NCBI GenBank assembly: GCA_002224055.1
Contig: AZLU01000059.1
Location: 62,001 to 126,000 of the forward strand
Source: Pezizomycotina sp. ARF18
Taxonomy: Eukaryota > Ascomycota
Length of the DNA stretch: 64,000 bases
Reading direction: 5' to 3'
Every line of letters begins with the position of its first letter. Position 1 is the first letter of the stretch. Under the pieces are notes generated by a model. The model saw only the letters and a list, made by a program, of their open reading frames with translations. It was not told where the DNA came from and searched no databases. This document shows, in pieces, positions 6,845 to 59,867 of this stretch. Both the position numbers and the translations under genes were made by a program.

Positions 6845-7990
6845 TTAGCTCTGTCGTACCTGTTGAGTGGATGTTGTACCAAAAGGATAGCCTACCATAA
6901 ACCGTTTTGTGAAAATCAGAGCGAAGAAGGTCCTGTTGTATTTCTCATATATTAGCAGGCTGAGCATGGCTGGACCTTAGGAAATGTAACAATTTTAGGC
7001 GATTCCGAGCGACTTACATTGACGAACTCCTTCTTCTTGCCCTTCTCCTCAACACAGGGCTTGATTTTGAAGATAACGTCGTCGTCCCACCTCCTCTTGA
7101 CGCTAAAATCCTTTTGGGATTGAGCAGCGGATTCCCATGTGCTATGTCGATTTCTCTTTGAGCTTCTGCTTCTGCTGCCTTCTCTCGTTCCTATACGTAG
7201 GTCATGCGACCTCGTTAGCAGAGGTAAAAAAATCGACTACCAATGATTGCAGTATGCAGTTCCTATGAAATGTAACGTTCCAAGTCAGAAATTGTAGCAA
7301 TTACCTCTCGTTCCTTAGCTTCGGCCCTCTCCCTCCTGATCTTCTCGAGCTCCCTCATCAGCTCCGCAGTCTCGTCCTCATCATCGCTATCGTCGCTACT
7401 ACTGCTGTCGCTGTCTGAGTCTCCTCCACCGCTTCCGAATCGGCGTCTAGATCTCTTGTCTCCTCGAGTATTCGCCGCCTTTTTGCCTCGGGACTCTCGT
7501 CTTCCTCCTCGGTCTTCCCTGCCATCTGCATCGTCGGTGTCCATGCGATCGGTTATCTGTCGTTTTGCAGCGCGGCGGTCCTTGAATCATCTTCATGTCC
7601 TCATCATCGTCGTCCGTGGGAAGAGGCTGGCCCTTGACTTTGGCGTAGTGGGCAGCCTCTGCCTTGAGAAGCTCGGCGCGGAGGTCGCGCTTCGCACTGT
7701 CCGGCTCGCCGCCTTGGCCGGGTTGACTATGGGTAGGTACGCGCGTCAGTAAAGGGTAGACGTGAATCGAGCGATTGGCATAGACGGAATAGGCTACGCA
7801 CCGTAGCTTGAGCTTCGTGTGTGCGGGAAGGAGGCGCTGGTGATATGCGGGCCCCTTTTGGTTTCCTTGCCGACGGCCTAATTCACGTAAAAGTGTTAGT
7901 AGAATTAAGCTTTCCACAAGCTAAGGAATGGTTATTGTAGAACAGAGGCGGACTTTACGGGTCGAATGTAGGACGATGTGCTGTAGTCAT
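6845..7990 (-). CDS. CWC15: spliceosome component Cwc15 (Cwf15)
   Basis: A core protein of the Prp19/NTC part of the active spliceosome. The N-terminus MTTAHRPTFDP, then GPAYHQRLLPAHTKLK in exon 2, an acidic middle, an ELMRELEKIRRERAEAKERE helix and the C-terminal KRRWDDDVIFK are family hallmarks. The C-terminal DLLRSDFHK follows. Introns are visible after PTFDP, after KLKLR, after AKERE (GTAATT..TATAG) and before DLLRSDF. A final short exon VRQS gives a stop at 6845-6847. Frame changes occur near 7560 and between NPLLNPK and VKRRWDDD, each consistent with one missing base. It is divergently arranged with Rrp45, with 322 bases between the two ATGs. Confidence 0.93.
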
Positions 7991-8312
7991 GGTGAAGGAT
8001 GCGGTGGAGACGTGATAGTGATTGAATTGAGGTCGCGATGATGATGTCGGCGTATACTTTGAGTTGAAAGATTTGGGTCAGAGCTCTTGGCAAAGAGTGC
8101 TATTAAAATTTTCTGTTTCTTTTTTCAATTTTTTGAGCCGCACCACCAACAACTTTAGTCCACCGACTGTTACACGGCATTAAAACTTTTCAAATCGTCG
8201 CTCGTTCTGCTAACATTGCCAACGCTTCGCCGCCGTTCGCACTGGACGTATTCCTAAAGTGCATTCCTCTTGTTCCCTTTCCTGTTAGCGAAACTTTTGA
8301 GCTGCCGCAACA
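7991..8312. promoter_or_regulatory. shared divergent promoter Cwc15 / Rrp45
   Basis: The two start codons face away from each other with 322 bases between them, so this stretch must hold both promoters and both leaders. No TATA box stands out. The Rrp45 side is relatively GC-rich and the Cwc15 side contains pyrimidine runs on both strands. Confidence 0.6.
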
Positions 8313-9347
8313 ATGCCGCCAGGGACATAGAGCTGAGCATAAATGAGAAGAGCTTCGTCCTCGAAGCTTTGAAGAAAGGAATTCGCATTGACGGCAGGGA
8401 ATTTGACGCATTTAGGGATGTCAAGATTGAGTTCGGGCAGGAGTACGGTCTGGTGGACATTACTCTGGCAAAACTCGGTTCGTAATTCAAGCTCTCACGA
8501 AGCAGGACCAAACGAGACCAGGGCTGAGCTAAAAGAGAGCTCTTTTCATTATAGCGTACTAGCAAGAGTTTCGGCTGAGGTTTCGAAACCGAGACAGGAG
8601 CGGCCGTTCGAAGGGCTATTCACGATCACGACGGAGATGGGACTATGGCTTCGCCGGTATTCGAAGCTGGAAGGTGAGCGACAAAATTTATCTACTTGAG
8701 CGGCCTCCAATGTTTCATCTTTCTCAATTAAAATAGCTTCATTCTGCTGCTCAGTGCTGAGATCTTTTCTACTGCGACAGACAAACGGAACAAGAGCTCC
8801 TTCTTGCCCGCTTAATAGAAAAATCCATCCGCCGCTCACATGCTCTCGATACCGAATCCCTCTGCATAGTCTCGGCAAACGCTGTTGGGCCGTTGCGTGC
8901 AGACTGTCTCTTTGTCTCCCACGATGGTAATCTCGTCGATGCATCCTGTCTCGCCGTCATCGCGGCGCTCTCCCACTTCCGCCGGCCGGACGTTACGGTA
9001 TCCGGCGACGTTATAACCATACACCGATCGAGGAGCGCGAACCTATGCCGTTGTCGATATTACACCATCCCATATGCGTCACGTTTTCTTTCTTTCTGGG
9101 CGGGGAGGTCTGCTTGATCGATGCGACGGCGCAGGAAGAAACATTGAGGGATGGGGACATGAGTATTACGATCAACAGGAACGGGGAGCTATGTCAGATC
9201 GCAAAGGCGGGCGGCGTAGCGACGGAGGCGCACGTTATTTTGCGGTGCGCTGAGGTGGCGCTAGTGAAAGTGAGGGAGATATCAAGGAAACTGATGGATG
9301 CGCTAAAGGAGGATGCAGCGAAGAGGAATGTTGGCTTGGGACCTTAG
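8313..9347 (+). CDS. RRP45: exosome RNase PH-like subunit Rrp45
   Basis: A subunit of the six-member RNase PH ring of the RNA exosome (EXOSC9 in animals), in nucleus and cytoplasm. Conserved blocks in order: ELSINEKSFVLEALKKGIRI with DGREFDAFRD, then RVSAEVSKP, GLFTITTEM, ESLCIVSAN, HDGNLVDASCLAVIAALSHF with RRPDV, and PLSILHHPICVTFSFF. Like other eukaryotic Rrp45 proteins it is expected to be structural rather than catalytic. Introns: 8478-8554 and 8674-8780. The ATG at 8313 (MPP) needs one extra base to join RDIELSINEK. Further single-base gaps before KTRVL, in EMGTMASP and before the MPLSILHH block are consistent with dropped homopolymer bases. The protein lacks the long C-terminal tail of the animal form. 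Confidence 0.93.
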
Positions 9348-9794
9348 ATTTACGGATAGAAGGGCGTTCGGAAAACGAAAGATAACATCTATGTACTTCT
9401 TATATTTGTTTCCTTGTAATATTATCATCTGATTTTGTTCTTCTTTCAGCTCTTTTTTGGCGTTTGGTAGAGATCTCTCAAAGCATCTGGATAGCAAGTG
9501 CAGTATATCTAAAAAGACATGATTTGATATTATTGAGTTTTCTTGGAAGATGAAAAGTCTTGGCATTTGGAGATGATAGATCGTCTGAACTTTTGTGTCG
9601 CTATCTATCTCTTTTCGGGCGCACCTTGCACCATTTAACCCGCGTTTTTTAACATTATTACTCTAGCACAACATCACCCGCACTTAACCTCCTATCTTCG
9701 CTATCGACAATGTTTATCCTAGTACTATAATAGCTCTAATTATACTTGGTATCTTTACGGCCTGAGCTCGGGACGGAAGAGCAGAAGTACAAAT
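9348..9794. other. intergenic Rrp45-Med22
   Basis: About 450 bases hold the Rrp45 3' end and the Med22 upstream region. No further gene is seen. Confidence 0.6.
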
Positions 9795-10422
9795 ATGGAG
9801 GGCTCATTTTCGTCACAGCAAATCTCCTCGCAACCCAGTACGATTCAGCACAATCCATTTGCATAGTGCACACAGAGAGCTAACGTCCTTTCATAACTGC
9901 AGAGCTACACACTCTCCAGAATACACTTCTCCGGCTATTCCAAGGCATCGTCGAGCTTGCGCCCGTACGTTTCACCGTGTGTTATTGTTTGAAATCTATC
10001 TCGCAGTTGATTAATATGTTTCGTACATAGACCGAGAACAAGGACCGCCAAATGACGGCTACGCAGACGTATCAGATACAGGTGCACGCCGCATCGATAG
10101 TACGTTACTCACCCCCACACTCACTTCTACATGAATATCACCAGAACTGTAGTGCTAATCGAAGTTTCGTTCAGATACAAAACGCCGAAGAGCTCCTGTC
10201 AATAACGCGCTCTTTGAAGGAAGCGTGGTTGTTCGGACGTCTAGGCGCGGAGCCGGTACAGAAGGACTCCGGCGGCGCGGAGGTGGATGAGAAGAACACG
10301 GAGGCGGACGCGGTATTTGTCGCGGAGTACTTGAGGGAAAGCTACGGGAGATGGACGTCGGCGTCACGGAGGAAGACGAGGAGGCGTATGCTATCGCGAG
10401 GAGGGCAGAGCGGGCGAAGTGA
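9795..10422 (+). CDS. MED22: Mediator complex subunit 22 (Med22/Srb6)
   Basis: A head-module subunit of Mediator, which links activators to RNA polymerase II in the nucleus. Exons appear to be 9795-9837, 9903-9964, 10031-10099 and 10175-10422, all with GT..AG introns and matching phases. The joined product reads MEGSFSSQQISSQP, then a KLHTLQNTLLRLFQGIVELA helix, TATQTYQIQVHAASI and the signature AEELLSITRSLKEAWLFGRL, which is diagnostic for Med22. The C-terminus KLREMDVGVTEEDEEAYAIA ending in RRAERAK is reached only if one A is added to the AAA at about 10338. As written, the frame runs on to 10498. Confidence 0.9.
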
Positions 10423-10641
10423 TTGGGAAAATGGTGAGAAGGGCGAGAGCTCGTGTACGATGTTACGTTTTTTGACGGAATGGCATACTGGAATATGAGC
10501 GACGAATATCATGAGAAAGTAGGGTCAAAGGGCGATGGGCGTTTCACTAAGCAAAGAAAACACCTAACTTGAAGCGCAGCGGGAATTTGCACTCGTGTCG
10601 ATGAGTTGACCTCCAGTTCTGAGAGCATTTACAACATTATT

Positions 10642-10789
10642 TCAAAAAAAAAAAAATAAAAAAAAAATAAAGTAATAAATAAATAATAAAAAAAATTTTT
10701 TTTAAAAAAAAAAAAAAAAAAATTAATAAAAAAAAAAAATAAAAAAAATAAATAAAAATTTTTAAAAAAAATAAAAAAATAAAAAAAAA
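10642..10789. repeat. A/T-only low-complexity block
   Basis: Almost 150 bases consist only of A and T, mainly long A runs broken by single T bases, with two short T runs in the middle (about 10695-10704 and 10758-10763). Some of the A runs could pair with these T runs. It lies about 220 bases after the Med22 stop. Confidence 0.9.
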
Positions 10790-11448
10790 GTGAACCCAAC
10801 AAAGGTCCTGGAGTAATCTTGAGACCTGGACTACGAAGCCAATGTTTATATTAACATTATTTCTTGAGGCGAAGCTACAAGCGCTTCGATATTGTTTTCT
10901 TTTGTTTTATTTGATTAAGCAGAAATGTTTTCACTTGGTCATGTATTATTGTCATTATTGTTGAATCATTACCTGTTGGATAGATCTTTGCGCGCGGTAT
11001 CGTGGTTTCTCTGTTGCTTCCGGTTTCTTTCTTTATTTAATATTTATTTATTTATATATTATTTCATTTTGTGTGTTAAAAAGCTATCCGCCGCCCCCAT
11101 TCTCCGTTGATATGTTGCACATCTATTTATCCCAGCATCTACGGTGTGCAAACATTCTATTAAATCAAAACAGGTCCTATATAGCTATATATTGCGGGTG
11201 GGATATTACTTGAGGGGCAAAAAAGCTTAAAGGGTACGTACTTATATATCGATATATTATCATTATCATTATCATGATTATGCGTATCACAGGCTCACAG
11301 CTGGCTGGAGTTAGCCGCTGGAGCTCGAAAAGGGACAGTACGCTAAATAAATGTGCCTGCCAGCTCAAAGACAGCTGCCTTCCCACACGGACATATAGCT
11401 CCCCTTTTCCTGCAGCTTAGGGGCAAGGGTTTACAAGCACAACTTGTA

Positions 11449-11449
<1 letters not shown>

Positions 11450-11492
<43 letters not shown>

Positions 11493-11502
11493 TTATTATT
11501 AT
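11450..11502. repeat. (CTA)n passing into (TTA)n microsatellite
   Basis: About fourteen copies of a CTA-type triplet change abruptly into about four TTA copies. The switch of unit within one array suggests a point change that then spread. It lies in the gene-poor region before Nrd1/Mrn1. Confidence 0.9.
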
Positions 11503-14500
11503 CATTTCTTTTTTGCCCAAGTCTCCGGCTACTGACAAGTATCCGAGAAGGTCTCGGCAGCTTGAAAAAAGACCGCGGTCTGGACGGAAGAGGACCCGGC
11601 CCGTTGTGACTTCTCCTTTCTTTTTCATCTCTAAAATGCCGCCCAAGGCACCAATAGCAACACCACTTTTTACAACGCCCAACAGAGATCGTTGATAGAT
11701 TCTCTTCCATGTTGTTTAAATATTATTTCGAAGCTCAGGCTCGAGCAAAGGAAGGTCGTGGTAGTGCCCGAGCTTGAGCAACGGCCAGCGGCGACCTGAT
11801 GAGATAAGCCCAACGACATGCTAGCGTGAACTCACATGGAAAAAAAAGGCATAATAGCAGTTGGAGAAAAAAAAGAAAAAGCTCCCATGGCACACCAGAC
11901 GGAAGTGGAGGAAACACGCGATGAAGGGGGGAAAAGAAAGAAGACGAAAATGGAAAAAGCAAAGGAAACCAAGCAGCCAGTTACAGGCTCTGAATTGTCA
12001 AATTGTCGCCCCCTTTCCGTTTTTCGACGTGGACCTTTCCTAATACGGCGCCTCTTTCGGTCCTTTTGGCTCAGAACGTTGGGGGGCAGCCGCACTGATC
12101 GACCAACGGGGGTGATAGGAGCAGAAGCAGTGTGTGGATATCTGAAAGTATTCATTTGCTAGGTTTAACCAAGATATTTTTGCATGTCCGAACCCCTTTC
12201 GCGGCTTCAACGGACTGCCTGTCCTAGTTTCGCTCTCGCTCGCAAGGTCAAGGAGACTTCAAGAGGGAAAGAAAGGTTCCTTCTCACACAATTTCTATGG
12301 AAAGGCTTAAATGATTTTTTTCTCTTCTAAAAAGCATGCAGGCCAAGTGGAGTACAGTCTCGCGACTCGCTTCGAAACTCGAGCTTTGAGATATTTTAGC
12401 GACAATGCTTTTCCCTGTTATGAGAATATATGAAAACGCTACAGCACCAGGAGTCGCTGCTGCACCGCACCATGCTATCACAATAGCTTCCCCTTTCTTG
12501 ACCGTGAAGAAAGTCGCCTTTTGCGGGACGAAAAAAAAAGGCTGTTTCTTTCTTAATTCCACATAACGGAGCCTTTATCTTATCAGGACCCGTGTTCCTT
12601 TGAGAGGAGGGGATGACCGTGATGGTTTATTTCATTTATTGAATGGCTTGTCTTGACCTTCGAGATACCTGGCCAGCCGCACATCACAATAATACTCACA
12701 CAAACACCCACACCATTCTTTTTCATTTCCTCGATTTTTTTATTGTTTTATTTATTTCTCCTATCGTCCCATGTCCAAGCTCCTGTGTGTTGGCCAGGTT
12801 CCTGTTCCTTTCCCTTTTTTTTTTTTTTTTGCCTCTGCTTTTTTCTCCGCATTCTCGCAGACTTCCAGGACTCCTTTCGCTGTTGTCGGCAGTCAGTATA
12901 CTTATTTGAAAAAGACGTGAGATTTTCAGAGCAAAAAAGACAGGACATTGCCCCTTTCCCTCCCCTTTTTATATTATTAGCTACTATCGAATATTTTATT
13001 AAATTTACACAACCACACCCTTCAACGCTCATTTCCTTTTTATTTTTTTCTCCGTCCTCTGTTACTTCTGCCAAAAGGGTTCCTTGTTCGCTTTAGTCGC
13101 CTTTTGAATATATAGAGCTGTTTTTAAATTGAAATTCTGTTCATTACTTACGGGCAGTGTAGATATCATATATATTTTAAGGGGTGGAGGTAACAATAAT
13201 TTCGTTTAATAATATTATTCCTTTCTCCGTCGGTCCAAAGAAAAAAAAAAAAAAAAAAACTTCCCCCTTCTCAAATTTTAAACTCCTCCGCCTTTTTATT
13301 TTATTTTATTATTTTTTTTTTCCCTTTTTTGGTCTTCCCTCTCTTCATTTCCCTTTTCCCTCTATCCTATCTTTTCTGCTCCTTTTTCTCCCTCCTCTTC
13401 TTCTTTCATTCTTCCTTTGCTTTCTTTTCTTGTTCGCCACCGCTTCTTAACCTCTTTTCTTTCCCCCTTCTTCATTCCTTTCTTTATTTCTTATACCTCT
13501 TGTTTTATAGGTTTCTGGTAGCTTTCGACTGAGAGCTACACGAAGACTTTTCAATTCGAACCTTAATCGAGCTTGCTTCTCGTTCCCTATTTTGTCCTTG
13601 ACTTACCGTGGCTGCGAAGGCTTCTTCGGCTGCACGTTTTCGTTCGCTCCAACTTGACAGGAAAGGTATCTGTTCTCACAAGAGAGTTTGCAGAGGGATC
13701 AAACAAGGTATGCTGATACCTCTCTTCCTTCCAGCTTTGCCTACAAAGTGATATAGAGGCTGTCCGCCTTTTTTGGATGCGATTAGTGAATCCTCTGCGT
13801 GATTTGAAGACATGCTCTTTCCAGATCAGACCATTCGAGTTCGCAACCTATTAGTTGTATACTAACGTAATGCCTGGAATAGAGCAGACAGTCGGACTTG
13901 TATGACCATTTGAAGATTTTCGTTTTACCCTTCTCGTTTCGTCGAATTCGATTTTATACACCATACAACAAGAAGTCGAAACGCTATCGGGGAGCACCTT
14001 TTCTTCTTCTTATCGACATCGCATTTTCTTGATTTTATCTCAAGGGTTTCATATAATCGTCAACTGCGAAAGTGCTCACTTGTACGGATAGCAGATTCTA
14101 CGATCTTGTCTAGATCGCGACGCGTTTCGAATTCGGATTTTGACGAATAGTGTGTAATTTTGCAAGCTGCAAATTGTGAGTTATTAGTGTTTTTTTTTTT
14201 TTTCTTTTCTTTTTTGAGTTCCCAGGTTCGTCGGAATTTTGTCTTATCGTTGGCATTTATTGTTATTTTGTACTATTTATTCTCTTTCAATCCTTTTCGT
14301 ATCTATACGTTGTATAGCTTGTCCGCGAATTTTGGACATTTGTTCATTGGCTGCGAATGCCTCTAAAAACATAAATATCCCTTTCGTTGCTATATGAACC
14401 GCGTTGAGGCATTCGATCATTACGGGGAAGTTTTTTTTTTTTGTGTCAATATCTCTACCGAAATCGGTACCTTTTTTTTGAGCTGAGAAGATCAGTGAAG

Positions 14501-16675: not shown

Positions 16676-18819
16676 ATGCAGACTCCAGCTCCTCGACCGG
16701 AGCTGCTGTTGGGGGCAACAGGCTCCCTCACCCTCTTTCGAAATCGCATAACGTCGGGGACCGAAATAGCGTCGATTATACCAATCAGCAATCTCAACTC
16801 GGATCAGATACTTCGCAGAACCCCCGCAGACGTGTTAACGTTCCTCAGATCAATACCGGAACCTCTGGACACCATATGGAATATGAATGGAACTTTGGCG
16901 TCTCCCGGCGGCGATTACGGCATGAACTTTACCCCATTGCTTCCGTCTCAACTGCTCCTTGGCTCACCTTTCCAGACAACGCCTCAGTTCGCGTCTTCCG
17001 GGTTCGCGATTGGCGGAGCCTTTTCTCCTCAAGGCCCCAACGCTGCTATGTCGCCGAGTACGTACAATGCTGGGGGCCTTGTCTCCCCTGGAGGATTTAC
17101 GCCTCAGTTGCGTCTTACTATCCGCAGCAATCGCCCACTGCGAACTCCCCTCTCGGATCCGGCCTCCTGTCTGGAACCTCCCGCACGGTGTACTTGGTAA
17201 CATCCTCCTGAGACGTCTGCTGAGGAAATCCTCGGGCACGTCAGGTCCGGCCCAATTGATCCGTTAGGCTGCTTCCTGACAAGAACTGCGCCTTCATCTC
17301 GTTTTTGGACGGATCCTCCGCCACGCATTTCATTCCGATGCCATCCTTAAGAAGCTGGCTATCAAAGGACAGGATATCAAGATTGGTTGGGAAAGCCTTC
17401 TCAGGTTCCGACTTCCGTTGCGCTTGCTGTCCAGCAATCTGGAGCGTCCCGCAACGTCTACCTCGGCAATCTTCCTGAGGATGTTACCGAGGAAGAACTT
17501 AAGGAGGACTTGGGAAAGTTCGGACCGATAGACACAATCAAGATCGTGCGCGAAAAGGCTATCGGATTTGTCCATTTCCTTTCCATTGGTAACGCGATTA
17601 AGGCGGTGAACCAGCTTCCACAGGAGACGAATGGCAAGCCCCGCGTAGGGTTTACTACGGCAAGGATAGATGTGCGTATGTTTCGAAGACTCAGCAACAG
17701 AACGCCGCCCAGTATCTCGGAATCAACCCTAGCATGGCACATGTTCTGAACAGCGCGGACCGCGAGGTCATCTCTAACGCTTTGGCGCAGCAGTCCGTTG
17801 CCGCAGCTGCTGTTGCAACCTCCGCTGGAGGCTTGAATAATCTGGGTAACAGGACCGTCTACCTCGGAAACATCCACCCGGAAACCACCATCGAGGAGAT
17901 CTGTAACGTTGTCCGTGGCGGTCTCCTCCACCACATCCGATATATCCCTGACAAGCACATATGCTTCGTCACTTTCATTGACCGACCGCCGCGGCGTCTT
18001 TCTACGCTCTGTCTAACCTACAGGGCCTCATGATCCATAACCGCCGTTTGAAGATTGGTTGGGGTAAGCATTCTGGAGCTCTCCCACCGGCTATCGCGTT
18101 GGCAGTGTCCGGCGGAGCTTCCCGAAATGTTTATATCGGTAACCTCGATGAAACCTGGACGGAAGAAAGGCTGCGCCAGGATTTCTCAGAGTACGGCGAA
18201 ATCGAGCTCGTCAACACCCTCGCGAAAAGTCGTGTGCGTTCGTGAACTTTACCAACATTGCCAACGCCATCAAAGCCATCGAGGCCGTTAGGGTAAGGAG
18301 GATTACCGCAGGTTCAAGATTAACTTCGGAAAGGACCGCTGCGGTAACCCGCCTCGCCAGTCCAACGGAGGTAACGGTAACGCGGAAGGTTCACCGAACG
18401 GTCACCAGGGAGGATCGCAGGGCGGTGGCTCTCCGGCTTCCGGTCCAGCTTTGTCTCCGGCCGCCAATGGTGCCATCGTCGCCAACCCATTGCAAGTTTA
18501 CCTTGCCCATCAGCAGCACCAGGCTGTCCAGCAGCAGCAGGAGGCTTATGCGCAGCAAATCAGCGTATACCCCCCGCAAAATGACAATATGGTCAACAAC
18601 ATGGCTAGCCCGGCCCCGCAGCAAACGCAGCATCAGATGAACGGTAGTGGTCCCAGCACGAACGGCAACGGCAATTCTCTGAGTCTGCCAAGGTCTTCGC
18701 ACAACAGGGCTGTCAGTCTGCCAGTCCTCAGCATGATGGGACCTGGTTCGCAGCAAAATGGTGTCCAGAACGGGACCTCTTTCGGAATGTCGTCGCCTGG
18801 AATGATGCGGACGGAATGA
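16676..18819 (+). CDS. four-RRM RNA-binding protein Nrd1/Mrn1
   Basis: Orthologue of fission yeast nrd1 and budding yeast MRN1, cytoplasmic mRNA-binding regulators linked to differentiation and stress granules. The N-terminus is disordered ([19 protein letters not shown]). Four RRMs follow: RRM1 about 17185-17390 ([23 protein letters not shown]), RRM2 about 17447-17680 ([26 protein letters not shown]), RRM3 about 17850-18065 ([26 protein letters not shown]) and RRM4 about 18117-18345 ([32 protein letters not shown]). A glutamine-rich tail ends at 18819. The ATG at 16676 is the nearest one, but coding-like sequence extends upstream, so the start is unsure. The frame switches about eight or nine times. 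Several switches (for example in GNIPPET of RRM1) are explained by one missing base in a doublet. Confidence 0.92.
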
Positions 18820-20603: not shown

Positions 20604-22652
20604 ATGGCGGAATCAAGATCTACAGACCAAAAACTGGCCTCTGCGGTCGAGGGACTTTCGATGTCTCACCCTGCGATAAGTATGTCAAGCTTCCTTGGAG
20701 CTTTGCTGTAGCTATCTCTATCTTTCTGATGTAGCTGGAAGTTTGTTGGGGCGGGAGAAGAAACAAGCTATATCGCACTATCTCTCAGCAGCTACCCCAG
20801 CGCAGAGCTTTTCCCAATGCAAGATATATCTTGAACATAGCAAATGCTAATATTGAAATCGCTCAAAATGATGTTAAAGTCTACATCGACGAGGAAACCG
20901 GCGTCGATTCCACCGACAAGCCCAACACCCCCGAGACTCCCTACAAGACCCTCCTCTACGCACTGTCCTTGAACCCACCGCCTACGACGACCTACCACGT
21001 CAAAAAGACCAAAGCTGCTGCCGCAGAGGAGCGGAAGCGCCTTCGTCCGAATACGAACCGGCCACCCCTACCGCCCTCAAAAAGGCTAAAAAGGTCCACG
21101 AAGCCGCCGTCCGCAAAGCCGCCAAGAACGCTGCCAGCGCGGCCGCCCGCGAGAAGGACGAAGCCGAGCGCGCCGAGAGGGAAAAAGCCAAGCTCGAGGC
21201 TGCAAAGGCTATAGTCCTCAAAGAAGATCTCTCGCTCGATAAAGCGGTGTCCATAAAGATACACGACGCCGTTAAAAGTCGAGGGAAACGTATTAAGGTC
21301 TCGGGTTGGATCCACAGGTTGCGGCCGCAGGCGCAGCTGATTTTCATCGTGCTCAGGGACGGTACGGGGTATTTGCAGTGCGTGCTCTCGGGCGAGCTGA
21401 CGAAGACGTACGACGCACTCATGTTCACTCCCGAGACGTCGATCACGATATATGGCGTCATCAGCGAGGTACCCGAGGGCCAAACTGCTCCCGACGGTCA
21501 CGAGCTCGCGGCAGATTACTACGAAGTCGTCGGTAAAGCTCCCGGGGGTATGGAGACCATTACGACGGTTATTTCCCCCGACGCCGAACCGCAGCTGAAG
21601 CTCGACCAGCGGCACCTCGTCATCCGCGGCTCCGAAGCTTCGTCCGTCCTTAAAGTCCGCGCCGGCGTCCTCCGCGCTTTCCGAAAGATGTACGAGGACT
21701 ACACCTTACGGAAGTCACACCGCCCTGCATGGTGCAGACGCAGGTCGAGGGCGGTTCCACTTTATTTGAATTCAACTACTACGGCGAGAAAGCCTACCTC
21801 ACACAATCCTCGCAGCTGTATTTGGAAACCTGCCTGCCGTCACTAGGCGACGTGTTCTGCGTCGCCGAATCCTTCCGCGCCGAAAAATCGCTCACGCGCC
21901 GCCACTTATCCGAATACACGCACATCGAAGCCGAGCTCGCGTTCATAACCTTCGACGACCTCCTCTGCCACCTCGAGGAAGTAATCTGCCGGGTCGTAGA
22001 CTACGTCCTCGCGGACCCCATCTGCGGCCCACTAATTAAAGAACTCAACCCAAGTTTCGTCGCGCCGTCACGACCGTTCATGAGGATGAAGTATAAAGAC
22101 GCGATCGAGTGGCTCACGGAGCACGGCATCATGAACGAAGACGGGGAACCGCATAAATTCGGCGACGATATTGCCGAGGCAGCGGAGCGGAAGATGACGG
22201 ATACGATTAACAAGCCGATTTTTTTGACGGAGTTTCCCTTGGAGATTAAGGCGTTTTACATGAAGAAGCTGGATAGTGACAAGAGGGTTACTGAGTCCGT
22301 TGAGTAAGTAGTCAAACATCCCCTCTTCCTCTTCCTCCCTACTTCCTTTTACCTCTTTTTTGCCGTGGTAGTTTGTCTGACCTGATTGAATAGCGTCCTG
22401 ATGCCGAACGTCGGCGAGATCGTCGGCGGATCCATGCGCATGGACGACCTGACCGAGCTCATGGGCGGTTACGCCCGCGAGGACATCGACCCGGGACCGT
22501 ACTACTGGTTCACCGATCAGAGGAAGTACGGCACCTGCCCGCACGGCGGTTACGGCCTCGGCCTCGAGAGGTTCCTGGCGTGGATATGCGACAGGTACAC
22601 GGTCAGGGAGTGCTGCCTGTACCCCAGATTCATGGGACGGTGCAAGCCTTAA
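20604..22652 (+). CDS. DED81: cytosolic asparaginyl-tRNA synthetase
   Basis: A class IIb synthetase that charges tRNA-Asn. The N-terminal block [20 protein letters not shown] is the fungal AsnRS extension, followed by a charged helical linker. The OB-fold anticodon domain (about 21240-21560) contains [20 protein letters not shown]. Motif 2 shows in [20 protein letters not shown] and motif 3 in [28 protein letters not shown] and the C-terminal YPRF complete the fold. The ATG at 20604 opens a short first exon ([17 protein letters not shown]) with a GTATGT donor near 20682. A clean intron lies at 22304-22393, giving [14 protein letters not shown] across the junction. Two frame changes (near 21040 and 21710) interrupt otherwise perfect homology, consistent with single missing bases. 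Confidence 0.95.
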
Positions 22653-23005: not shown

Positions 23006-24649
23006 CTATGCAGCAGCGCCGTTCGTCGATGAAGCCGGCTGCTCAGCTTGCTGCGGAGTATCACCTTCAACAGCACCGTTCGTCTTACTCAAATCGACAT
23101 TCGAATACGGCGAAAACAACCCGGCAGCTCCTCCTTGCAGCCGTAAAACAGCCTCCGTAACTCCTCGCACGCCTCCACGTACATCCTCTTCCTCAAGTCG
23201 TCGTTGCCCCACGGTGCTTTATCCCACCCGTGCGCTACACCCAACACTTTCTTATACACCACATCCTTCCCCAATTCATCTTCCAACCTATCCCTGAGCC
23301 TTTCCGCTTCAGCCAATAACTCGTCCCACTCGCACGTGTACATCATGATATCCTTCGGTAAACCCTTCAACATCCCGTGCGGCGCTACCGCAGGCGACAG
23401 GAACGGATTATGCAGCGCGACTTCCTTCGGAGGGTACAAATAACTAGCGTCGAACAGATCCGTGAAGAACTTCGGCATCCCCTTATCGACGCGTATGTTC
23501 GTCATCCGCCGCTGCTCGCGGGTGTTGGTGTAGTCGCAAGAGGGGTACCACGCGCATATAGCGAGTATGTTCGCGGGACACCGTGCGCGTCCGTGCCGCC
23601 GTGGGAAACGATGCTTTCGCGGTGAGTACCCCTCGACCGCCGCGCCGCCTCTTTGCTCCTCCTGATGATCTCATCCTCATCATCGCTATTGCTACCGCTC
23701 GCGACGGCGGTCTCGGGAACTCTCACGCTCATGGCCTGTATCAGTCCCGGTTGGACGGCGCAGAAGCTTCCCCTCCCCGCTGCTTCGCGCGTAGTTCCGT
23801 CGTTCCACCCTCCGTATCCGTCGGCAACCCCATCCGCATGCGAAGCTCGTACTGCCACCGCAGCGGCACCGTGAACGCCATATTCCCGCCCGCGGAAAAC
23901 CCGCTCGATACGATCCTTTTGACGTCCAGCTGCAGCTCGTCCGCGTTGTCGATGAGGTACATCAGCGCGTCCACGCCGTCTTCTATCGCTGTGGGGAAAG
24001 GGTACTTCGGCGCCAACCTGTAGTCTACGGCCACGACGACGGCGTTGTCAGCGTCGTGACGGCGTGCGCCCAGCGGCAGTCGTCCTGAGCGTTTCCGATG
24101 GTGAAGCCGCCGCCGTGGAACGAGAGAACGACGGGGAAGAGCGACTGCTGCCTGTTCTGCTGCGTGTTCAGCGACAACGTACTCGCCGCCGGATCCACCG
24201 TCGTCGTCGTCCCGTCCTTTTTCGTATTAATATTGATATTCGCATTCGGAACCTGCAGAGTATTCCCGTTCGGTTTCGCATTTTTCGGTGGCGACGATGA
24301 AGACGAGCTCGTATTCGTCGACTGCCGCGATATATCCACTTCCTGTACCATTCCCTTGTTGTTAACGCTGGTAGAGCTGCTGTTCCTGCTACTACCGCTA
24401 CCGCAGGACGAACCGTCGGGAACAACGTAGGCGGGCGGCGTGTAAAAGTGTAGCTTTATCGTTCCCGGGTACTTTTTCGAAACGGTGGTCTGTATCGTCC
24501 GGGTGAAGGAAGGGGCGAGGGTTGGGGTGGGGGAAGGTGTGGATGTACATGCCGATGTTCATGAGGTTGCGCCATGTCATGGCCTCGAGCTGCAACGTCC
24601 ACCGGGGGCGGGAGGAGCACATGTTGGAACAGGGGCAGGAAGGCGCCAT
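23006..24649 (-). CDS. alpha/beta hydrolase, HSL-type (Abhydrolase_3)
   Basis: A lipase/esterase-like enzyme with a full catalytic apparatus: the HGGGFT oxyanion motif near 24101-24118, the nucleophile elbow GFSAGGN near 23889-23909, an aspartate in CEWDEL near 23311-23332 and a histidine in VAHGWD near 23220-23237. The N-terminus from the ATG at 24649 (MAPSCPCSNMCSSRPRWTLQ) followed by a WRNLMNIGMYIHTF segment is typical of a fungal membrane-associated subgroup. A serine-rich insertion precedes the HGGG strand. The tail ends in SSTNGAAA at 23006. Several frame changes occur in GC-rich parts. The substrate cannot be told from sequence. It is convergent with AsnRS, with 353 bases between the stops. 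Confidence 0.85.
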
Positions 24650-24703
24650 TTAGAAGGGAGGTTCTTTTTCTTTCTTTTCGAGCTTCGCGGGGAATCGGTT
24701 ATT

Positions 24704-24734
24704 TATGTATGTATGTATGTGTGTATGTATGTAT
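24704..24734. repeat. (TATG)n microsatellite
   Basis: About seven TATG units, one of them altered to TGTG, lie just upstream of the hydrolase start. A similar TATG stretch recurs at 25071-25110. Confidence 0.85.

Positions 24735-25157: not shown

Positions 25158-25189
<32 letters not shown>
25158..25189. repeat. 32-base poly-A tract
   Basis: One of the longest single-base runs in the window, in intergenic DNA upstream of the hydrolase. No transposon remnant is visible beside it, so it does not look like a retrotransposon tail. Confidence 0.9.
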
Positions 25190-29338: not shown

Positions 29339-29826
29339 ATGTCGCGCCATCATCCCGATCTCGTAATGTGCCGGTACGTCTTCCTCCTCCCTTACTCTCT
29401 CTCTCTCTCCCCCCCCCCCCCCGGGGCAGGCCCCATTCTATCCTCCCCACAAACGCCCAACTAACACTCCTTCTACAGTAAACAATCCGGCATAGCAATC
29501 GGTCGCCTCTGCGACAAGTGCGACGGCAAATGCCCCGTCTGCGACTCGTACGTCCGCCCACAACCTCGTCGGATATGCGACGAGTGCTCCTTCGGAAACT
29601 ACCAGAACAAGTGCATCGTCTGCGGCGGCGAAGGAATATCCGACGCTTTTTACTGTTTTGAGTGTACGAGGTTGGAGAAGGATAGGGATGGTTGTCCGAA
29701 GATTATTAATTTGGGTAGTAGTCGGACGGATCTCTTTTACCAGAAGAAGAATTTCGGAATCATTAGTGTGGGGAAAGACAGGGAGAGCTGGTGGGTGGAG
29801 GAGGGTTTATCACCGTATTTTAGGTG
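29339..29826 (+). CDS. RDS3: SF3b subunit Rds3 (PHF5A, Ini1)
   Basis: A small zinc-binding protein of the SF3b part of U2 snRNP, needed for branch-point recognition. Exon 1 (29339-29373) encodes [13 protein letters not shown] 105-base intron follows (29374-29478), and exon 2 continues [20 protein letters not shown] with [47 protein letters not shown] and [18 protein letters not shown]. The cysteine pairs of the zinc knot are present. The family motif VRPTTLVRICDEC reads here as [12 protein letters not shown]. Adding one C at each of three C-containing spots restores it exactly, so three bases appear lost with the frame kept. After NFG the frame runs on to 29826. One more A would give NH and a stop at 29764-29766, a more usual length. 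Confidence 0.95.
29409..29422. repeat. 14-base C run inside the Rds3 intron
   Basis: A CT tract runs into fourteen C bases followed by GGGG in the only intron of Rds3. It lies well upstream of the CTACAG acceptor. Confidence 0.9.
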
Positions 29827-44822: not shown

Positions 44823-46002
44823 ATGAATGTAAGTAGCTAGGACTGAAGGATATATAAGCTTGGGGTTTTCGTCAGCTCATGGGGGAAGCTGTTCATATTC
44901 ATCGACTACCTTTAACTAACACACCTTACCGTTTTCCAATTAGCTCTTCAAATATAAACCGTTTCGCATGATGTCGAGCACGTACGAACCCATCCACCCT
45001 ACCTCCGACCCGCGCGTCACGCACGAGTATGAGTTCCTCAACGGCCACCGCTTCCACTACGTCGTCGGCAACCCGACTTCCGGTCGCGAGCCACGCGCTA
45101 CCGCCGTTTTAATACACGGCTGGCCGGATCTGTGGTTCGGCTGGCGGCATACGATCCCGGCACTCCTCGATTTGGACCTCCAAGTCGTGGCCATCGACTG
45201 TCTAGGCTACGGCGGGAGCGATTCGCCGCGCTGCCCTCCCGAGGATCTCTCCGTCTACGGCATGAAGACGACGATCGACGCCATCGCCGAGCTGCTCACG
45301 AGATGAACGTCGAGAAGGCCGTCGTCATCGGCCACGATTGGGGTGCCATGGTCGCCTGGCGCTTCGTAAACTTCCACCCGGACCGCGCGAGCCACCTGTG
45401 CACGATATGCGTTCCCTACGTACCCCTTCGCCGACTTACCTCTCGCTCGAAGAAATCGTTAAGGCGCTGCCTAATTTCACGTACCAGCTCTCGCTGGCGA
45501 ACCCGCAGACCGCAAGGGATTTAGACTCTAAGAAAGCCAAGCGGGACTTTTTAGCGGCGATCCACCGCGGTGCCGGCGAGCGGCCACCGGGTAAATTTAA
45601 CGTTCCGGAAAACATCGTCGCGAACATGGGCGAGATGGAACGTTCGGGTATACTCACGCAGGAGGAGCTGGATTACTACGTCGAGCAGTACCACGCCAAG
45701 GCTTCGACGGGCCGCTAAATTGGTACAGGGTGAGAAAGTACAACTGGGAAGACGATAAGGCTATTACAGATCCGAATATTTACGTTCCGACGCTGTTCAT
45801 CGCTGCGGAAAAGGATTCGGCGCTGCCGCCGAGTATGGCGCAGGGGCAAGAGAAGTTCGTCAAGGAGCTTACGTATAGGGAAGTTAAGGATGCTGCACAT
45901 TGGGTTATGACGGAGAAGAAGGATGAGGTCAATGCTATTCTCAAGGAGTGGGTTGAGAATGTCGTCTTCGGAGGAAGTCGAAGCTCTGAGCGCTCGAGCT
46001 AG
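44823..46002 (+). CDS. soluble epoxide hydrolase (alpha/beta hydrolase)
   Basis: An enzyme that opens epoxides to diols. Motifs in order: VLIHGWPDLWFGWRHTIP (HGxP oxyanion motif), DCLGYGGSDSP, VIGHDWGAMVAWRFV (nucleophilic aspartate in GHDWGA), a cap region with FTYQLSLANPQTARDL and PTLFIAAEKDSALPPSMAQG, and the catalytic histidine in DAAHWVMTEK. The gene can start at the ATG at 44968. A better model uses ATGAAT at 44823-44828, a GTAAGT..TTAG intron to 44942 and then LFKYKPFRMMSS in frame. Frame changes after AELL, near YVP and near HAKG look like dropped bases. It may act on lipid or xenobiotic epoxides; the substrate cannot be read from sequence. Confidence 0.88.
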
Positions 46003-47149
<1,147 letters not shown>

Positions 47150-50140: not shown

Positions 50141-50416
50141 TTCAGTAAGGATTAAGTATTCTTTTATCTACTCATAAGCTATCGGTCGTATGAAATACAG
50201 TAGCTAATATATAGCGTGATAATTCATGCGGGGAGAGCAACCTTCTTCTCGAATAAGGACATTCGACATTATAGGTCTACACGCCCACTTGTGGGTGTCT
50301 TGTAAAAAGGAGAGGACTATTGAATAATATTAGTTTCTTCATGATTATAAGGACGCATGAGAGTAGGGATAACGGATAACCTAATGCTAATGCGTGGGCG
50401 TTTGCGACTATTTCGA

Positions 50417-50887: not shown

Positions 50888-51103
50888 AAGAGCTCTGAGG
50901 CAGCGTGAGGCTGTGAAATGGGTAAAATGGTAAGCTACTAGAATTGTTTAAACGCAAAATTCTGATATATATATCCCTATATTCTGATGTTTCGAAGCAA
51001 AGAATAAAGTCTTGAAACAAGTGCAAATGCCTTAAAATTCCCAAAAGTCAACCATATTCACGAAAGCTCATCTAAATTTCCCCAGACCTATCGGAAGTCG
51101 AAG

Positions 51104-53466: not shown

Positions 53467-54264
53467 AATGATGTATTCAAACAGCCTCTTGTAATGGTCA
53501 GAGTAAGCTTTATCCAAATGAGAGATGCGACAGCAGAGAGTTATTATGCTCACTCACTCCATATATCTTACAACAGCTAGAAAATTTGAATATACAAATA
53601 TTTTCCAATTAAGCTGGGCGCCTTTACGGTCATGTACGTACTGTTAATCAGCAGTTCTGTAGCTGTAGGATCTGTAAGATCGGTTGTGCATGGGTTTCTT
53701 ACGGTTTAGAACCATCATTATATTATTCAACGTATATAGACAACCATTTTCGGACCTCCGATGTATATTAATGTCTCGGCTTTCTATACCTCCGCAAACG
53801 CGATGGAATAAAGCTTAGGATACGAAAGGATATAGTTACAAGGCTTGAATTTTCAAGGCGAGGGGCTGTGTCTCATTAAGCTGAAAGAGCTTGAAAAACG
53901 GCCTTCTCCGAGCTCTCTCGACGGACGAAATGTGGAGTTACTACAATATAGCATATCATTGATCCCTGTCATTGCATGAGTTGTGTCTACGATCCGATCT
54001 CTAGAGGCAGAGTATTCAAATCCTGCGATCGTGTGCTACGAACATGAGTCACATATCCACGAGAGCTCCGCTTGCATCTGAACACTGCCTTCCAAGGCGT
54101 GTATATAAGTATAGGTAGCTTCCTTGTGTTACAACCAATGATTTCTGAGACTTCAATCGATCCAAAGCTATATGTTACGATATCAGCCACGGCTCAAGAG
54201 ACCCCACATTCGCTTAATTCATTCCCTCGTTAGCTCTAGAAACGTATTCAAAAAAGCTCTAACC
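53467..54264. other. intergenic CorA-like - DAAO
   Basis: About 800 AT-rich bases with no recognised gene. The last 100 bases before 54265 look like a leader. Confidence 0.55.
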
Positions 54265-55374
54265 ATGTCGGATAGCAGCAAACACATTATTGTCGTCGGG
54301 TAAGCCAATAGTTCCGTTTTTAAAGCTTTTCTATAAGCTGATAAAACCCCATTTAGGGCTGGCGTTATTGGCCTACAAACTGCCTCCTTACTCTCTCAAG
54401 AAGGTCATAAAGTCACCATAGTCGCACAATACTTTCCCGGTGACTTATCCATAGACTACACCTCTCCATGGGCTGGGGCTCACTTCCGGGGCGGCACGGA
54501 GGGCCCTCCGTTCGAAACGTTCGAAAGAGAGACATTCCTCCACTGGAGTAAACTCATCAATGACAATAACAAGGCTAAACAAATCGGGATCGAATTCGTA
54601 CCAGCGGTATACTACTGGGACGAATATACACCCGCCTGCGAAAAGCTCTGGTGGTCGGGTATAGTCCCGAATTTCAGAATTTTAAAGAAAGAAGAACTAC
54701 CGGACGGTGTCGAGTATGGTGTCGCGTACGATACTATTTGCTGTAATCCGAATACCTATATGCCTTACTTAATCTCCCTCGCGCCGGAAGTTAAACACGT
54801 GCGCTGTGGGAAGCTGAAGAGTATTGAGGAGGTGTTTAACTTACCCGAGATAGCGGCAATCAAGGATGACGTTGTCGGCATTGTCAATTGTAGCGGGCTG
54901 GGTGCGCTCGAGCTTGTTAATGATGCGGACGTCTTCCCGACGAGGGGCCAGACACTACTCGTGAAAGAGAGTACCCCGCTGGATGTGTTCAGGCAAGCCC
55001 GAGAGGGACAGGCTTGGTACATCGTCTGCCGTGCAGATGGGGGTGGCTCGATTATTGGAGGAAGCAGGCAGCACGGTGATTGGAATGCCGAAGTTGACGA
55101 TGATCTCACGAAGCGGATTATAGAGAACTGCAAGCTCATTGCCCCCAGGGAGTTAAAGACTGCTGATAATGGGGAGGATTTTCAAATTGCAAGCGTACAG
55201 GTTGGACGTAGACCTTCGAGGAAAGGCGGTATCAGAGTCGAAGTCGACGGGAATGGTGTCAATGGCAAGTGGCTTGTCCACGAGTATGGACACTCGGGCA
55301 GCGGATATCAGACGTCCTACGGTAGCGCAAAGGAGACAGTGAGGTTAATACTAGAGCTGGTGAAGGGGAAGTAA
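54265..55374 (+). CDS. D-amino-acid oxidase family flavoprotein
   Basis: It oxidatively deaminates D-amino acids using FAD, giving ammonia and hydrogen peroxide. Exon 1 (54265-54299) encodes MSDSSKHIIVVG. The intron 54300-54356 splits the FAD-binding motif VVGAGVIGLQTASLL. Exon 2 (54357-55374) is open throughout, and the product is 350 residues, the normal family length. Other landmarks: DYTSPWAGAHFRG, VNCSGLGALELVND, FPTRGQTLLVK, GGSRQHGDWN, VQVGRRPSRKGG (substrate-binding arginine region) and HEYGHSGSGYQTSYGSA. The C-terminus LVKGK is not a peroxisomal SKL signal. D-aspartate oxidase is the alternative; the family members are hard to separate by eye. It is the cleanest gene in the window, with no frame break. 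Confidence 0.95.
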
Positions 55375-56403
55375 AGAGGTTAGAATAGATTCGTAATACG
55401 TGGTTATCCATTCAACATGAAGTAGAAAATAACTCAAGCTTCCCAGAGTTAGTGGCCTGACACTTGTCGGCTAACTCTTGTCCGGCTCCCAAATGCTTGT
55501 CAAAAACCGTTGAACCTAGCATTGCCTTCCGTAAGACATGTACCCGGATGTCTCGCCGCGATATCCATGCAACCAGGGCTAGACGGACTAACTATCCATG
55601 CGATGCAACGCCAGTGGGAAATCGGCTCTTTGTCCAGCCCTTGCGTGATACAATAATAGCGACGAACTACTAGGCGGCACTGGTAGCCTTTTTTTGACCA
55701 CGTTGGCGGCCGCGCATGCCCTGTGTATATCTCCCAGCCGCGAGATTCCCCTGTTCTCTTCGTTATGCATGAAAAGAATATTTCCCAAGCGAGCGCCTTT
55801 CGAATTCGGCGCCTTCTCAAAAAAGGGAACTAGGCAGTTACCCTTCTCATCCTTATCGTTATCGGATGGACAAAGCAAGCAAGAAGCAGTTGCTTAAGTA
55901 AAGGCGGGAGACATTTCGATGCTTCTGGAAAGTCAATGTTTCGTAGATCCGTGGCTGTTTATACTGTACTGGGACAAAATCTCGGGCCGAGTTAAAAAGA
56001 GGATCTAAAGTATCGCTAGCGAGAACAACCAATAATTGTGAGAATGTGACACCGAAACAACTGCTTCAAGGCTTCTTGCGCGATCGATAATAGTGGGGAG
56101 ATTGAAAGCTCCGTAATTCCACTTGAACTACTATAAAGAACTATTTCTTAGTGTAATAAAAGGCTTACGCACGCCGTCGTGTAAATACTACTTCTGGATT
56201 GGCTGTACCTGCATCTCGCATCTCCCGCATTTTTAAAGTTCTCCACTCTATATTTAATTGTCGCACAAAGTTTTCGTCGCACCACTTTACACAGCCGATC
56301 CGGGATTCGAATACCCCAATCATTCACCCTATAAAGAACCTCCTCTTTCAGCTTTTGCAAACCTTCATCATCATTGATCAACCGCCGACGATTTTCAATT
56401 ACA
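55375..56403. other. intergenic DAAO - reductase
   Basis: About 1 kb without a recognised gene. Short frames on both strands between 55,464 and 55,897 overlap each other and show no family traits. The last 60 bases form a CA-rich leader. Confidence 0.55.
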
Positions 56404-58030
56404 ATGTCAACTCACGATAGGCAATTCGATCTTATCCTCTTCGGTGCCACCGGCTACACGGGGACTTTAACCGCCAACATCTGGCGGGGCATGCGCCCAC
56501 TAATCTGCGATGGGCCATCGCCGGTCGGTCGGAGCACAAGCTACAGGCCGCGGCGAATATCCTCAACAGAAGTTTCCGGACAGGACTCCCGTTGGTACGA
56601 AGAACCCTGTGCTGGCTAATTGAGGGCAGATGTATACCCTGGGTTCGACCTGCTAACCATTTGGCCAATTGCTCACTTAGGAACCTTCGTCGCTGATCTA
56701 AACCCCGAATCGCTGAAGAACATGGCGGAAGCTGCGCGCCTCGTCATAACCGCCGTGGGTCCTTACTGCCGCTACGGCACGCCTCTTGTGGAAGCTTGCG
56801 CGAATGCAGGGACCCATTACGTTGACTGTATGTTTGAGCCCTTCGTCCCCACGTCTGGAAATAATGTGACACGTTTCACGAAATATTTCAGTGACGTCAG
56901 AGTAATTTTTGTAACAAGTCGAGAAGACTAATAATATTCGGAATTCTGCAAAAATAGGCACTGGTGAACACATTTGGGTTCTTGAAATGATCAAGAAATA
57001 TCATGAGACTGCAAAGAATAATGGCGCCATCGTAGGCACTAATCCCCCTGCTTCCTGTTTGAAGCATTATTTTCTAGCTTTATCACGAGGTGAGCATGCT
57101 ACTAACATCGAAGCACAGATCGTACCCCAATGCGCATTTGAATCCGCGCCTGCGGACCTCAGTTCATTGGCCATAAGCAAGTTCATCCGCAAAAATTACG
57201 GAACCGGCACGGCCAGCGTCACGTTCGCGCTTTGCGATGTAGTGTATGTTTTTCTCTTTCCTCGCTTGTTCGGCACGAACCATTTCACGCTAAAAGAAAA
57301 CTCTCTGAACCATAGTGGAGGAGTGTCCGGGGGCACGATCGAAACTTTCCTCTCCGTAATAGACACCTACCCCCTCCGCTCCATCGCCGCTTCGGCTTCC
57401 CGCTTGCTCTCTCACCAGTGCAGAGGAAGTGGTCTCCTCCCTCAGGCAGTTTCTTTCCGTCCGGTACAATAAACATATCGGGTATCTTGCGCCGTGGGTC
57501 CAAGCCATCCCGACCGCGCCATAGTAATGCGCAGCTGGGGTCTCATGAAGTCCGAGTCCGCCGACAAAGTAGGCTACGGCGACAAATTCACTTTCGAAGA
57601 GCGTAAAAGGTTCCGGGTTTCATAGCCGGAATAGGATTGTGGTTAGCAATCGGAGTTCTCAGCGTTGCGGTTGCGTTCCCGCCCGTACGCTGGATCGCGA
57701 GGAAGTTTGTCACGCAGCCGGGCGGTGGACCCGATGAACATACAAGAGCGAAGGGTAAGTGTGAGTGGAAAGCGGTGGGTGAGAGCGAGGATGGAAAGAG
57801 GAAGGCGATGAGTACGATGAGGTTCGCGAGGGGAGAAGCTTACATAATTACGGGACTCCTGATCGCCGAGGCTGGATGAGCATCCTGTATGACGAAGGCC
57901 GGGAAGAAGACGGCGAAGAGAGGCTTGTGAAGAAGATGGGTGGTGGCGTTCTGACCCCGCTTGCCTAGGCGAGGCGTACATTGATAGGCTGCACAAAGCT
58001 GGCGTGGTGCTTGAAGTTGAAGAGGTTTGA
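56404..58030 (+). CDS. saccharopine dehydrogenase-like (trans-acting enoyl reductase type)
   Basis: An NAD(P)-binding reductase-like membrane protein. From the ATG at 56404: MSTHDRQFDLILFGATGYTG (Rossmann glycine motif), then RWAIAGRSEHKLQAAA, VITAVGPYCRYGTPLVEACA, NAGTHYVDC, then after an intron (GTATGT near 56828 to about 56957) TGEHIWVLEMIKKYHETAKN and NGAI. A second intron of about 90 bases (GTAGGC..GCACAG, ending at 57119) joins to IVPQCAFESAPADLSS. A hydrophobic helix (LWLAIGVLSVAVAFPPVRW) and GGGPDEHTRAKGKCEWKAVG follow. It ends in HKAGVVLEVEEV with TGA at 58028-58030. The exact reaction is unknown; fungal relatives are annotated as saccharopine dehydrogenase-like without lysine-pathway evidence. 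Several frame changes are visible. Confidence 0.85.
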
Positions 58031-58707
58031 AAAGATTGATAACGTGATATATCAGTTGTCCTCGTCTTTTCCTTTTTTCTTTCTTTTTTCTTTCTTTTTT
58101 CTTTCTTTTTTCTTTCTTTTTATTTTATTCTATCTTTTTTATTCTGTTAAACCAAATTTCCTTGGGCGGTGCCCTTCAAAGCTTCGTCTTGGACATTTTG
58201 TATTTTTCGCTTTGTTTTCCCTGTTTCTCTATGTAAGTTGTTTAGTGTATGTACGAGCTCGGCAATTGCGATGTCGCAGCGTTTTTAGACCCTTTAAAAG
58301 TGCCAAAGCAGTAAGTAATAATAATAAGTAAATGCGGGATATTATCTTATTCGCTGATGTTCTGCGAAAGGTTGATCACACTTTCGTAGAACCCTTGCAC
58401 CTCTTTCCCTAGGTGGTTTCGGTAAAATGTATGAATTGAGGATTCTCGGGGAGAGGCCTAAGACACAGTGCGAAGTGATCTGTGCGAGAGTACTTTACTG
58501 GGTAACAATACCTGGAAAGTCATATCGATGATTTTCCTTCATATCGAAAATGCGAGCACAAGAGACAGTAGACCTTCGAAAGAAGGAACAATCCGCTATA
58601 TTTCTGCAAGATCGCAAACGAGATCCACCACGATCTCGTCAAGGAAAAAATACACTCGAGTCGGCTTTCCCTGATGTGCCTTCCAACGAGTACCCTCATA
58701 ATTTTCA
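58031..58707. other. convergent spacer reductase / Fe-ADH
   Basis: A 677-base spacer with a T/C minisatellite near its left end and no recognised gene. Confidence 0.6.
58073..58121. repeat. 11-base pyrimidine minisatellite
   Basis: About four copies of an 11-base CTTTCTTTTTT unit lie within about 50 bases of the reductase stop, probably in its 3' untranslated region. All purine-free on the plus strand. Confidence 0.85.
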
Positions 58708-59867
58708 TCACCACAGCCCTTTTACGAGCTCCTTGACGGAACTGTAAACCGGATCGTCCTCCGGATTCTTCTCATCCTTGCTCTTAATCAATCCTCCAGC
58801 GCCCTCTTACAGATAATGTCAAGTTGATCCTTCTCAACACCCTTCTCTGTCAGCGTAGTCTTGAGGCCCAATTTGCTCACAAGTCCCAAAATCTTATCGC
58901 CAACTTCATCGCTGTCCTTCACATCATCTCCAGATTTCTTCCCGCCAACGTACGGCAAGATGTTCGCGATATCGCTCGCAACCTGCGAGCTCTGTCTCGC
59001 TTTTAATTTCACAACGGGCCCTAGCGTAATACACGACGTGATGCCGTGAGGGATACCGTACGGTGAACCCAGAGCGTATCCCAGCGAGTGCGACAGTCCC
59101 AGTCCACCTTTCAGGTTTTGCCCCACGAAACCTAAGCTCGCGTACGCCGCGAGGAATAACCCGGTTATAACATCCTCGTTTTTCGGATCGGATTTGTACA
59201 GCGGAAGCAAGCGGAACAGCTCGTTGATAGCATTGAGGGCCACGATCCTGCAGGGCACCCACGTCGCCGTATTGTTGTACTGCGACTCGACAGCGTGGTC
59301 GAGGGCCCTAATACCCGTCGATAGGAAAAGGTGGGGAGGGGTATGCAAACCGAACTTCGGGTCGTAGAAGATATACGACGGGTAGATGTTCGGGTTACTT
59401 ATTCCCGTCTTCACGCCATCGGCGGTAGTGTAGCCCGCCATGGCCGTTGCTTCGGCGGCGGATAGGGTCGTAGGTACGGTTATGTGGACCAACCACTTGC
59501 CCGCCGTCTCGTGCACGCGGTATATGATAGCTTTGGCGCTGTCGATTGGCGACCCCCGCGACGGAGATGATGGTGTCGATGGAGTCATCGGACTTGACCT
59601 GCTGGGTCGCCTCGTCGAGCTGAGCTGCGGGAGCATGCTCTCTGATATTGCTGAACGTGCCGGCGTGGTGGGTTGGCGATAGCAGGGATTCGAGCTGAGA
59701 GATGAGGGTGTCTTTGTGGCGAGGGAATTGCCGGTCACGATGAAAGCTTTGGAAGTGGGGTTGTAAAGCTGATAGGAGGTTGTTCTTCACGACGTCGGGA
59801 CCGTAGAAGAGGATTTGAGCTGGTGAGGCCGGTAATTGCCTTGGAGAGGGTGAAGAGAAGAGTCCAT
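58708..59867 (-). CDS. iron-containing alcohol dehydrogenase / maleylacetate reductase family
   Basis: An Fe-ADH family oxidoreductase. The ATG at 59867 opens MDSSLHPLQGNYRP. Then come ILFYGPDVVKNNLLSALQPH, TGNSLATKTP, ISQLESLLSPTHHAGTFSNI and SIDTIISVAGGSPIDSAKAI (nucleotide site), VHITVPTTLSAAEATAMAG, GIRALDHAVES, and the metal-binding histidines in GLGLSHSLGYALGSPYGIPH followed by GITSCITLG. The C-terminus GGLIKSKDEKNPEDDPVYSS, VKELVKGLW gives a stop at 58708-58710. As written, the frame stops early at 58788. About four frame changes cluster in the first third and one near the end; each restores the family sequence if one base is added. It is convergent with the reductase gene. Confidence 0.92.

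Follow-up and report, generated by a model that had tools for sequence, protein, structure and literature searches.

Why are the reading frames of conserved genes broken inside family motifs on a contig of a filamentous ascomycete? The question is raised by the window analyzed here, a stretch of 64,000 nucleotides from Pezizomycotina sp. ARF18 comprising positions 62,001–126,000 of contig C59 (AZLU01000059.1; 212,086 bases) in an assembly (GCA_002224055.1) of 46,361,250 bases in 408 contigs. The presence of an ITS primer site, of GT..AG introns of 60–107 bp and of an intron-rich mitochondrial contig would fit a filamentous fungus. An earlier note on this DNA had attributed the breaks to assembly error at collapsed homopolymers. 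Alignment of conserved genes to reference proteins, together with comparison of sister copies of the ribosomal DNA (rDNA), indicates with a probability of about 97% that these breaks are consensus errors left in a draft assembly, which most likely was put together from noisy single-molecule long reads at modest depth and polished inadequately. This would be an ordinary artefact.

Frame events in conserved nuclear genes

Eight genes on six contigs, covering 3,214 reference residues, were aligned to protein chains obtained by a sequence search of the PDB, using a custom aligner able to place gaps, GT..AG introns and codons of irregular length (1, 2, 4 or 5 bases). Rrp45, asparaginyl-tRNA synthetase (AsnRS) and an epoxide hydrolase lie in the window, and HSP60 (C70) and the CCT subunits gamma (C139), delta (C24), beta (C54) and epsilon (C99) lie on other contigs. 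The alignments contain 40 frame events (32 one-base losses, three two-base losses, four one-base gains and one five-base codon), corresponding to about one indel per 241 coding bases. With the five-base codon set aside, losses exceed gains by 35 to 4 (binomial P 3e-7). No in-frame stop is found in the 3,139 aligned codons, in agreement with the claim of the earlier note that no stop codon has arisen by substitution. Across eight penalty settings the number of events varies from 29 to 41, and the number of stops is zero at each. HSP60 carries 12 events, CCT delta six, CCT beta, CCT epsilon and Rrp45 five each, the epoxide hydrolase three, and AsnRS and CCT gamma two each.

The further claim that every break is a loss fails on four of the 40 events, the one-base gains, of which HSP60 has two, CCT epsilon one and Rrp45 one. 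An independent phmmer alignment of HSP60 puts two joining X opposite gaps, as gains would predict. When 1,200 single-base deletions were simulated by script, 1,097 were called as one-base losses, 33 as five-base codons, five as gains and one as a two-base loss, and 64 were missed. The intact groL gene of E. coli, aligned to the same HSP60 reference with 247 of 460 residues identical, shows no frame event at three penalties.

The reading frames were also traced free of any reference by a codon-usage model trained on the chaperonin (PF00118) matches of the same genome (2,889 codons including overlaps). Each of eight chaperonin genes on seven other contigs (C139, C99, C53 with two genes, C54, C24, C20 and C70) has at least one frame change in the traced path, which is the sole basis for both genes on C53 and the gene on C20. 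Since these chaperonin genes are also shifted, the frame problem reaches beyond C59.

Ribosomal DNA, homopolymers and the mitochondrial contig

Contig C189 (79,730 bases) carries rDNA units of about 10.86 kb arranged in tandem. Near-identity is expected of sister copies of rDNA. Over its whole compared length, the copy closest to the contig start has 68 bases deleted and 8 inserted, which makes 76 indel bases against 26 substitutions. Its 18S stretch has 42 deletions, 5 insertions and 21 substitutions over 2,215 bp, and the same stretch in the five inner copies has a single indel in 12,438 bp. Thus noncoding DNA is also damaged, and the copies differ from one another. Because sister copies should be near-identical, the differences in the near-start copy probably represent errors that fall in runs somewhat more often than elsewhere. 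In the five inner copies, runs of at least four bases hold 27 of the 32 listed differences. On C189 the ITS1 primer site lies 2,571 bp from the beginning of the 18S, about 800 bp farther than usual, suggesting an intron in this 18S gene.

The longest run within six bases of the 32 one-base losses in coding sequence has a mean of 1.94, the same as in 3,139 background windows, by a measure of little power, as the simulation hardly parts deletions in runs from others. Since the coding measure hardly discriminates, the sister rDNA copies were used for the homopolymer question. In the near-start copy, deletions affect 51 of 2,272 run bases and 17 of 1,923 single bases, a 2.6-fold enrichment (Fisher P 0.0005), and the deletion rate is 0.88, 1.75, 2.58, 3.41 and 2.83% for run lengths of 1, 2, 3, 4 and at least 5, respectively. 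Homopolymers are therefore enriched but not required, as 17 of the 68 deleted bases lie outside any run. The earlier idea of collapsed homopolymers accordingly captures the rise of the deletion rate with run length and leaves out this quarter of the deletions. Because of these deletions outside runs and the occurrence of one-base gains, the damage resembles that of a long-read consensus of low depth and not an error purely of homopolymer length. An A-rich stretch is found at window positions 10640–10789 (146 bases, 77% A). The window contains A runs of up to 32 and T runs of up to 27 bases, and therefore long homopolymers have not simply been shortened in the assembly.

Contig C50 is mitochondrial and intron-rich, with a length of 231,088 bp and a GC content of 25–29% in six 10-kb pieces. 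The three longest open frames in 60 kb of this contig run to 505, 487 and 389 codons, and in each of them the Pfam domains share one frame; the longest in the 64 kb of the window reach 345, 332 and 322 codons. In the C50 frames of 505, 487, 389 and 381 codons, LAGLIDADG domains stand in a single frame with matches to cox3 or weak matches to cox1. At a rate of one event per 241 bp, a mitochondrial frame of 1.5 kb would rarely survive. Thus the scanned mitochondrial frames, like the inner rDNA copies, are cleaner than the nuclear genes, which may reflect greater depth.

Pieces of the cox1 profile stand in order on C50 at 136,069, 181,022, 187,475 and 206,246, two of the four above the family cut-off; as parts of a single gene they would make cox1 at least 70 kb long. 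The longest ascomycete cox1 at the time of one report is given in its available text as 47.5 kb (PMC8260586). The first cox1 exon is present on C50 in two copies, at about 91.7 kb (L045:3742-5256) and about 136.0 kb (L041:5988-6869), both in frame with a LAGLIDADG endonuclease, the former with two domain matches and the latter with a single partial one.

Genes of the window

In coding segments of the window the reference-free path changes frame 27 times, 22 times as after a one-base loss and five times in the opposite sense (two-sided binomial P 0.0015). These counts derive from the path of the retrained codon model, and the pieces searched in Pfam and the PDB from an earlier path. Nineteen changes fall in genes named by a family or structure match: one each in Cwc15, Rrp45 and Med22, five in the RRM gene, two in AsnRS, four in the alpha/beta hydrolase, three in the epoxide hydrolase and two in the iron-containing alcohol dehydrogenase (Fe-ADH). 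The other eight fall in unnamed stretches, two near 57.6–57.9 kb (no Pfam match) and six near 41–42.5 kb, and therefore certainty is not extended to all 27; part of the reference-free changes may be introns. The genes concerned are as follows.

7296..7719, minus strand: Cwc15-like gene, one frame change (Pfam and reference-free path)
8258..9347, plus strand: Rrp45 (exosome), four one-base losses and one one-base gain (reference alignment)
8478-8554 and 8674-8780, plus strand: GT..AG introns of Rrp45 (reference alignment)
10166..10419, plus strand: Med22 fragment, one frame change (Pfam 25.5 bits, slightly below the cut-off of 26)
17334..18816, plus strand: multi-RRM gene, five frame changes, all of the one-base-loss type (reference-free path and Pfam)
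20855..22646, plus strand: asparaginyl-tRNA synthetase, one one-base loss and one 5-base codon, intron 22304-22393
23119..24331, minus strand: alpha/beta hydrolase, four frame changes in the path (Pfam match on the piece 23,125-23,574)
29339..29758, plus strand: Rds3/PHF5A homologue, no net frame change, intron 29374-29478 (alignment to human PHF5A)
44965..45975, plus strand: epoxide hydrolase, three one-base losses, no intron found by reference alignment
54811..55371, plus strand: piece of an FAD-dependent oxidoreductase (DAO), 561 bp free of frame changes in the path (Pfam)
58714..59820, minus strand: iron-containing alcohol dehydrogenase, two frame changes in the path (Pfam)

The frame changes in Fe-ADH, the RRM gene, Med22 and Cwc15 are based on the reference-free path and Pfam only. 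Breaks of frame within conserved stretches, as the earlier note described them, are borne out by reference alignment for Rrp45, AsnRS and the epoxide hydrolase, and the reference-free path also changes frame in Med22, the RRM gene and Fe-ADH. Rds3 does not follow this pattern: compared with human PHF5A, one residue is missing from the conserved core and the C-terminal tail is unmatched, with no net shift of frame. The name Nrd1/Mrn1 for the multi-RRM gene comes from the same note, and Pfam supports RRM only. Among the strings quoted there as sites of lost bases, ATGGGACT (8,637) and CTGGCA (8,465) lie on a break and GGGAAAGC (10,335) adjoins one; CCGCCAGG (8,316) and AACATCCTCC (17,199) are present but lie outside the aligned or traced stretches.

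The gain in Rrp45 has a partner loss 17 bases upstream (20 bases with the yeast reference), and both references yield this pair when the frameshift penalty is 10 or 14, whereas neither does at 18 or 22. The five-base codon of AsnRS lies in the poorly conserved N-terminal part and has the net shift of a one-base loss. Since simulated deletions are sometimes recovered as five-base codons, it is probably a one-base loss. The portion of the alpha/beta hydrolase near 24.2–24.3 kb may be noncoding.

Origin of the frame breaks

Error-prone long reads at modest depth would drop single bases from the nuclear consensus and occasionally add one, and high-copy DNA such as rDNA and mitochondrial DNA would be covered at greater depth and hence obtain a cleaner consensus. 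Residual consensus error is preferred because the indels occur without stops, share no strong motif and extend to noncoding DNA, and because normally multi-copy DNA is cleaner. Low depth as the cause, and a long-read platform, are what we infer from this pattern.

The breaks could alternatively be those of true pseudogenes, or the contig could be a decayed duplicate region, as might be thought from the many genes with broken frames; this is highly improbable. Pseudogenes should show mixed damage that includes stops by substitution, but there are none in the aligned codons. The aligned residues stay alike, with 371 of 460 identical in HSP60 and 133 of 325 in the least similar gene, and essential chaperonins on seven other contigs are affected as well. 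Moreover, the 13 introns in the eight aligned genes retain GT..AG ends, although the aligner permits only such ends. The AsnRS segment at window positions 20878-21846 has a single match in the genome, and no intact second copy was found. Therefore, the attribution of the breaks to assembly error rather than to real pseudogenes is well supported, other contigs and noncoding rDNA being hit too.

Conservation of the residues on either side of the shifts would also suit programmed ribosomal frameshifting, by which the organism would read through shifts at many sites. Programmed frameshifting has been described in Euplotes, where, as here, a conserved protein is read in two frames. Unlike in Euplotes, there is no strong shared shift motif here: none of the 27 positions surrounding 32 sites exceeds 0.28 bits, and the XXXYYYZ pattern stands near only one of the 32 (against 1.4% of 3,139 background codons). 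A further difference from Euplotes is that noncoding DNA is affected too, the rDNA showing deletions of the same kind. Losses are in addition mixed with gains, and no in-frame stop is aligned, so that frameshifting of this sort is very improbable indeed.

Insertional RNA editing that supplies the missing bases in transcripts would account for conserved flanks and for the dominance of one-base losses, and it deserves equally little credence. Insertion alone cannot explain the data because one-base gains exist in the DNA, two of the four at all settings, and the sister rDNA copies differ already in DNA. Such editing is best known from mitochondria, but the scanned mitochondrial frames look intact.

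Introns alone are no likelier as the source of the frame changes. The eight aligned genes do contain 13 introns of 60–107 bp, and some reference-free changes may be introns, but the reference alignment treats introns apart from its 40 frame events, which are one- or two-base steps, and simulated deletions are mostly recovered as one-base losses. Least credible of all is a fungus that truly lacks single bases across its nuclear genes and is rescued by RNA insertion or pervasive frameshifting.

Several points weigh against residual consensus error. The event counts spread from 2 to 12 between genes, two of the four gains disappear at four stricter penalty settings and two stay, and the intact-gene control is one gene, E. 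coli groL. The test used does not separate the homopolymer context of the coding breaks from what uniform deletion would give. In C189, 30,000 of the 70,000 fetched bases read N, so the comparison is of six partial copies; the near-start copy could in principle be truly decayed, though its deletions exceed substitutions 68 to 26, and the inner copies may share one assembler consensus. The ten C50 frames scanned, all with a Pfam match, were picked for length, and at least one endonuclease among them looks cut short. Finally, the evidence is drawn from the assembled sequence itself.

Residual error of this type has parallels in published drafts. According to the available text of a study of nanopore assemblies of filamentous fungi (PMC9453082), indels in conserved genes occur in and out of homopolymers and drop with rising coverage. 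Those long-read drafts resemble the present assembly in having such indels spoil predicted proteins, and differ from it in that their coverage was known and varied. In bacterial long-read drafts, the available text on Kastor (PMC12007338) ties deletions to runs of two to eight bases, finds insertions without a tie to particular runs and describes many false pseudogenes. Gene-fragmenting deletions associated with runs of two bases and more are common to Kastor and the present assembly, whereas the Kastor drafts are bacterial, were judged against reference sets and have deletions that peak after runs of four to five (PMC12007338).

These observations amount to a warning and not a discovery. In the living fungus the broken genes are most likely undamaged, yet gene calling on this assembly will report many nuclear genes as broken, short or missing. 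With an indel about every 241 coding bases in the eight aligned genes, automatic gene calls are unreliable, as the earlier note held, and not on this contig alone; other readings of the window that rely on exact frames should be weighed against this rate. Therefore, until the assembly is polished, it is unsafe to conclude from it that this fungus has lost genes, carries pseudogenes or has odd protein ends.

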